A stretch of 37,319 nt of DNA from Kiritimatiellia bacterium. GTDB taxonomy: Bacteria; Verrucomicrobiota; Kiritimatiellia; SLAD01. The notes beneath the pieces are model-generated. The model searched no databases. It was not told the DNA's origin and saw nothing but the letters and a program-made list of their open reading frames with translations. This document shows positions 18,721-19,612 of this stretch, piece by piece (the first letter of the stretch is position 1; each line of letters begins with the position of its first letter). The stretch spans positions 1-37,319 of the forward strand of contig SLCI01000114.1 in NCBI GenBank assembly GCA_007125875.1. Direction: 5' to 3'. The translations under genes and the position numbers were made by a program.

Positions 18721-19006
18721 GTCCGAGTGCCTCATTGATACGACACTTAAGGGCGTTTGACAACGAGAAAGCCGTTTATGAGCCTTCGGTCAACTATGAA
18801 GAAATGCATCAGGGAAAGCCCCATCGAGGTTCCTCGAGTGGACGGTTAGAGGGACCGGGGTCGGACCACAGGTTTCTCCAGAACATCAACGGTTTGCGAC
18901 TGCGAAACGGCATGATTATGGGCTTAGAGGCGCCTTTTGAGGGTGGTTTAAGGCTCTAAGGGCTGAGAATGTGACGAGCCGGACGGATGGGAATGGGCAC
19001 CAATGC

Positions 19007-19147
19007 TTTTCCAACGATTGGAAAACGGCCCGAAAATTTTTCCAACGATTGGAAAAAGTGCGGGAAAAAGTTCCAACGATTGGAAAACTCACCTAAAAAG
19101 TTTCCAATGATTGGAAAATGGCGAAAAGTTTCTCCCAATGATTGGAG
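19007..19147. repeat. Five-copy phased array of near-palindromes, exact 31-bp period
   Basis: Core TTCCAACGATTGGAA at 19009, 19040, 19071; TTCCAATGATTGGAA at 19102; degenerate TCCCAATGATTGGAG at 19133. Confidence 0.95.
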
Positions 19148-19319
19148 ACGTATCTTTTGCGCTGCGGGCGGGGCATGTTTCGGCTGGCGGTTGTCTTCGC
19201 GGACAGTTAGCTGTTGGTTGGGATTGAGATGTCTCGACAGGCTCGACATGACTGCGTTTTTTGATGTCGCTCCATTGGCGCGGCTTGCTGAGCTTGCTCT
19301 CTGTTGCGTGATGGGATCG

Positions 19320-19440
19320 GTAGGGCGAGGCTGCCTGCCCGTCCTCCGGCGGGTCTCGCCGAGCCGCTGGAGCAGGCGCAAGCACAGGGTCAGCACGGGT
19401 GCAGATCATGCTCACGGCTCATCCAGAGGATTCGCCCTAC
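19320..19440 (-). repeat. 121-bp MITE-like element, copy B (inverted relative to copy A)
   Basis: GTAGGGCGA-type left end and TCGCCCTAC right end; reverse complement matches 14950-15070 at both ends. A shared 17-bp box TGGTTTTGAGACAGCCT lies at 19481-19497 (reverse complement at 14892-14908). Confidence 0.85.
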
Positions 19441-19612
19441 CAAATTTGGACGTGACCCACATTTTTTGCCGCACTGCGGATGGTTTTGAGACAGCCTCTC
19501 CCATCGAGCCGTTGGAAAGAGTGCGGGATGATGACCGAACCTGGCGCCGCGAAGCACCTGCTCGGCGGAAGCGGGTCGAGTAAGTGTGGAGATGAAGTGT
19601 TCCCGTGAAGCG

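Follow-up and report, generated by a model that had tools for sequence, protein, structure and literature searches.

Sites of the matS, SBS and NBS type, bound by MatP, SlmA and Noc, respectively, are palindromes of approximately 13 to 15 bp that are occupied by dimers, are scattered by the tens through gaps and genes, and have an architectural role. Rickettsia palindromic elements are longer repeats, alike over their full length, that are tolerated in-frame inside proteins. The DNA uptake sequences (DUS) of Neisseriaceae are tags, single or in pairs, that far outnumber the arrays described below. They are found as lineage-specific dialects of one short motif (PMC3630211). REP/BIME sequences are short palindromes present in many copies, mainly intergenic, as singles, pairs and clusters, with some inside genes; the Rickettsia elements are mentioned in the same paper (PMC3733652).

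The locus compared here lies in a 37,319-nucleotide stretch of DNA (the window) from a Kiritimatiellae metagenome-assembled genome, or MAG (G000; 2.37 Mb in 259 contigs). Between positions 19009 and 19147 are five dyads, every step exactly 31 bp; four are exact matches to TTCCAAYGATTGGAA, and one has 2 mismatches. The features, read from the sequence except for the last, which comes from a dinucleotide wedge model, are as follows:

19009..19023, + strand: unit 1, exact palindromic core TTCCAACGATTGGAA
19024..19039, + strand: spacer 1, AACGGCCCGAAAATTT
19040..19054, + strand: unit 2, exact core TTCCAACGATTGGAA
19055..19070, + strand: spacer 2, AAAGTGCGGGAAAAAG
19071..19085, + strand: unit 3, exact core TTCCAACGATTGGAA
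19086..19101, + strand: spacer 3, AACTCACCTAAAAAGT
19102..19116, + strand: unit 4, exact core TTCCAATGATTGGAA
19117..19132, + strand: spacer 4, AATGGCGAAAAGTTTC
19133..19147, + strand: unit 5, degenerate core TCCCAATGATTGGAG, 2 mismatches
19001..19124, no strand: most curved 124-bp stretch of the window, predicted bend of 136 degrees

The original prediction had described exact palindromes starting at 19009, 19040, 19071 and 19102 and a degenerate one at 19133, with spacers that open with AA and have an A-tract in their second half, and all of this is true of the five units and four spacers of the window array. With up to 2 mismatches allowed, TTCCAAN3TTGGAA matched the window 6 times against 1.6 expected, a count reached in 0 of 100 dinucleotide shuffles of the window. 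As predicted, the array lies 414 bp from the start codon (18593) of an EF-G-like gene. The gap is of approximately 1 kb, and the EF-G domains of that gene were confirmed. Its position relative to EF-G is incidental, because an array was found in none of the EF-G upstream regions of eight relatives. The open reading frames (ORFs) running across the array (18956-19396, −; 18987-19583, +; 19089-19415, −) are not supported as genes; the two that were scanned had no Pfam match. The gap had also been described as full of mobile-type repeats. Two dispersed repeats do flank the array, one at 19318-19456 (88% copy at L038 5352-5491) and one at 18857-18960 (78% copy at L051 702-805), but the array is separate from both.

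The window array is not alone. Exact core copies number 87 in G000 and are spread over 27 contigs, each of which has one array or one lone copy; in total there are 27 arrays with 109 core copies, which read as TTCCAAYGAYTGGAA with variable flanks. Thirteen of the 15 core positions are essentially invariant, position 7 being C or T and position 10 being T or C. Unit spacings are 31 bp (76 cases), 32 bp (5) and 30 bp (1). The spacers share a layout, starting with AA and continuing through a GC-rich middle to an A-tract and then mostly GT, TC or TT, and 81 of 82 are distinct, so the copies are unlike simple duplicates of one element. The architecture is one of 15-bp dyads, TTCCA-N5-TGGAA, spaced two helical turns apart or, more often, three. 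Judged from sequence comparison, the window array is somewhat more probably than otherwise one of about 27 G000 members of a family of dispersed, phased arrays of palindromes, putatively protein-binding, that is widespread in Kiritimatiellae. The prediction of a protein-binding site agrees with these data, although its reading as one site was too narrow for a family that is genome-wide and class-wide. Identical spacers, adjacent or alternating, were seen in L335 (6082-6252), L167 and L144 and appear to be a sign of recent tandem unit duplication.

Orthologous arrays were used to compare cores with spacers. Five matching locus pairs between G000 and G001 or G002 were compared, and in the four with equal unit numbers, cores differed at 2 of 300 bases and spacers at 47 of 258 (Fisher p = 6e-15; two of these four pairs are within coding sequence, and the counted bases do not represent independent events). 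Both core differences fall at position 10. Because of this disparity, the cores appear to be under purifying selection, with the spacers nearly free. Most orthologous spacers can still be aligned and diverge by point changes. Array positions nevertheless turn over: within the limits set by contig ends, only a minority of G000 arrays had a counterpart among the array loci of G002. Position 10 is C in 20 of 109 copies in G000 and in 0 of 111 in G002. The degeneracy of the G000 core is one-sided, affecting positions 7 and 10 and not their palindromic partners; this is odd for a symmetric dimer and counts against our preferred explanation.

The original prediction missed a difference in the core, in concert, between sister species. 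The congener G003 has no TTCCAA..TTGGAA pair but has 94 pairs of the general form; among the matches listed, nearly every one reads TTCCATYGARTGGAA, and the 31-bp step and the A-tracts are kept. At L047 of G000 and its counterpart L325 of G003, the neighboring genes on either side correspond and the arrays have the same boundaries, while every unit differs in its core and the unit numbers are five and seven. At the N-terminus of a MotA/ExbB-like gene, six units in G000 (L038) face six in G003 (L335), again with differing cores. Thus, the arrays persisted at these loci while the core changed. A concerted change could have passed through a permissive intermediate specificity, which the position-10 variants of G000 might reflect, or through replacement of units. 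Core dialects follow lineage (AA..TT, AT..AT and AY..RT), with further forms in f27 (TTCCAYRSYRTGGAA) and f7 (GCC/GGC centers).

Across the class, for which the genomes compared are draft MAGs, TTCCAA..TTGGAA pairs 31 to 32 bp apart occurred in 73 of 289 genomes, with a maximum of 1,114 pairs (G092), and the reversed-pattern control gave 0 in every class genome. When looser arms were used (TTCC-N7-GGAA), additional class genomes scored, and no genome from elsewhere in the phylum had more than 1 pair. Named records with arrays, among the matches listed, were mainly Kiritimatiellae; a few carried other labels. A search of the open literature for the exact cores and Kiritimatiellae found no prior description of the arrays. 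One array in another genus (L314; G004:C148) is, with its flanks, almost identical to L030 of G000; this likeness may reflect recent transfer or a misbinned contig, and L314 was left out of the evidence. A three-unit array of the YGA form was seen in one 18.9-kb IMG/VR viral contig (L169), and no similar plasmid DNA was found for the arrays; viral or plasmid carriage was rejected on these grounds. In genomes with few pairs (L274, L279, L272 and L280), the pairs are apparently kept within reading frames, as read by eye, for example, in the loop before GFDCMLGNPPWE in an N6-methylase-like frame. The impression is that a putative binding protein was lost from these genomes and that the copies between genes then decayed.

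The original prediction had placed all dyads on the same side of the helix and had named random spacing in relatives as a contrary outcome. Spacing in relatives is not random. In foreign loci, found with a search pattern that favored spacings of 29 to 34 bp for one pair per locus, successive dyads were 31 (155), 32 (117), 22 (42), 30 (34) and 33 (12) bp apart, with zero at 24 to 28 or 34 to 41 bp. Samples not chosen for arrays gave spacings of 32 and 33 bp, with one of 22 bp, in G092, and of 31 and 32 bp, plus 42 and 62 to 65 bp, in G016. Spacings of 22, 31 to 33, 42 and 62 to 65 bp are near whole helical turns, as would be expected of dyads that share a face of the helix.

Placement was examined in the same genomes. 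In 243 kb of G092, an array was present in 50 of the 98 gaps of at least 60 bp (8 of 11 convergent, 11 of 15 divergent and 31 of 72 co-directional gaps); in G016, 54 of 168 gaps had one. Array orientation in co-directional gaps of the genus was the same as that of the genes in 13 cases and opposite in 14. Many arrays lie less than 100 bp from a start codon, the distances being approximate since genes were called by a simple codon-usage script. Array density is even over 400 kb of G016 (variance/mean, 0.88), and the sample from the closed genome G085, with 7 arrays only, is small for judging domain bias. The palindromes resemble matS, SBS and NBS in size, in being scattered by the tens through gaps and genes, and in their proposed dimer binding and architectural role, but those sites are not arrays of 2 to 7 units at 31 bp, and the evenness over the G016 sample does not point to confinement within a chromosome domain.

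A few arrays are read in-frame inside genes, namely, those for a nucleotidyltransferase (L028), a membrane protein (L032) and the MotA/ExbB-like N-terminus (L038). The nucleotidyltransferase array recurs in G001, G002 and G009 with differing unit numbers, and in G008 a pair stands at its place with no change in length relative to the array-free gene of G003. The degenerate core positions fit the wobble positions of an S-N-D-W-K frame (S-I-E-W-K in G003). Some arrays are thus, like the Rickettsia elements, in-frame inside proteins, but they share 15-bp cores only. Coding constraint was rejected as an explanation of the family: copies occur in all three frames and mostly outside genes, and the cores of f27 vary at five adjacent positions. 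The original statement that the array is not protein-constrained holds in the main and was incomplete with regard to the arrays that are read within genes.

Curvature had been proposed from the A-tracts, and it is borne out as a prediction of the dinucleotide wedge model, in which phased and unphased controls behaved as expected. The predicted bend of G000 arrays is approximately 132 degrees per 124 bp, compared with 47 for shuffles, and 18 of 20 G000 arrays exceed at least 97% of their own shuffles. The maximum among 930 positions in the window is at 19001, on the palindrome array. Spacers in G092 and G016 lack the strong A-tract grammar of G000, and curvature is therefore not a universal part of the arrays.

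A sequence-specific protein acting on DNA is suggested by the constraint on the dyads, the free spacers, the helical phasing, the indifference to transcription and the lineage-specific core. A putative dimeric DNA-binding protein would occupy each dyad, and dimers three turns apart on one face of the DNA would bind cooperatively and, together with phased A-tracts, could compact the stretch into a curved nucleoprotein. Because arrays are found in gaps of every type, whether divergent, convergent or co-directional, and now and then within genes, the role may be structural, in nucleoid organization or insulation between genes, rather than the control of particular promoters, although we are less sure of this step. 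Gene-neighbor clustering for a cognate protein returned only common families.

Several other explanations were weighed against a phased binding array. Mobile palindromes like REP/BIME, spread through gaps by a RAYT or other transposase and tolerated with no host function, are an unlikely source, although the arrays too are dispersed, mainly intergenic and high in copy number, often paired or in arrays. The number of AA..TT-form pairs varies from 0 to 84 within one genus (g21), some arrays show tandem unit duplication (the identical adjacent spacers of L335), and dispersed repeats lie near the window array, all of which would suit such elements. However, the copies share only their cores, not spacers or flanks, unlike copying by descent; orthologous cores are conserved, apparently by purifying selection; and the units are phased at two or three turns. 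The GTAG or CGTC tag is absent from the 109 G000 copies, and there is no obligate Y1 transposase: PF01797 was undetected in the array-rich genomes G024 and G054 (88% and 91% complete), occurs in many genomes that lack arrays, and its distribution does not follow that of the arrays. The arrays are also not parts of one decaying transposon, an outcome that had been named as contrary to the original prediction. Operators of an ordinary transcription factor with a large regulon are less probable still. Helically phased 15-bp dyads are typical of cooperative operators, and many arrays lie close to start codons, but convergent gaps are filled too, some arrays lie in coding sequence, no orientation is followed and the adjoining genes (EF-G, nucleotidyltransferase and MotA/ExbB-like) are unrelated.

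An uptake or transfer watermark, in which biased uptake and recombination drive concerted core changes, would explain lineage-specific dialects that, like those of DUS (PMC3630211), have apparently changed in concert through the genome. We regard it as improbable: G000 has only about 27 arrays, and fixed 31-bp phasing and multi-unit arrays are unexpected of an uptake tag; DUS have no helical phasing. Each core can fold as a hairpin with 6 bp in the stem and 3 nt in the loop, as terminators, mRNA stabilizers or leader hairpins might, but array orientation is unrelated to transcription, helical turns set the spacing, the C10 variants of G000 break a pair on the array strand, and there was no Rfam match at the gathering score; an RNA-level element is very improbable and was rejected on orientation and Rfam. 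The near-invariant repeat and mostly unique spacers of near-constant length recall a CRISPR-like or recombination array, in which an integrase adds a repeat with a short spacer. That origin is hardly credible for 27 separate sites whose spacers follow a fixed A-tract grammar, do not look captured and, in most orthologous pairs, remain alignable with point differences. Overall, the REP/RAYT, RNA and coding explanations fit worse than a phased binding array.

The phased binding array can be extended, tentatively and with some doubt, to a putative protein that lays phased, curved arrays over intergenic DNA, a chromatin-like system in one class, not previously described, in which the word recognized shifts jointly at many dispersed sites from one sister species to another while the architecture (and position at two loci) is kept. 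If so, this would be a class-wide and genome-wide structural binding system, absent from the open literature searched and found in roughly one in two of the intergenic gaps sampled in G092. The core difference between sister species would then offer a natural experiment in joint change of a DNA-binding protein and its many sites, which is otherwise hard to study in bacteria. The arrays would also account for the odd in-frame peptides SNDWK, FQRLE and PTIGK in some Kiritimatiellae proteins.

A second pair of palindromes, two copies of TAGCTTATAAGCTA set 41 to 42 bp apart (about four turns), was seen at L029 801/842, L034 4908/4949, L043 4883/4924, L045 3872/3913, L049 2395/2436, L329 557/599, L332 970/1012 and L330 2059/2100. 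It stands on the 3′ side of 8 of the 79 arrays of the genus and on the 5′ side of 0 of 79, and its sequence is the same in G003 despite the different array core.
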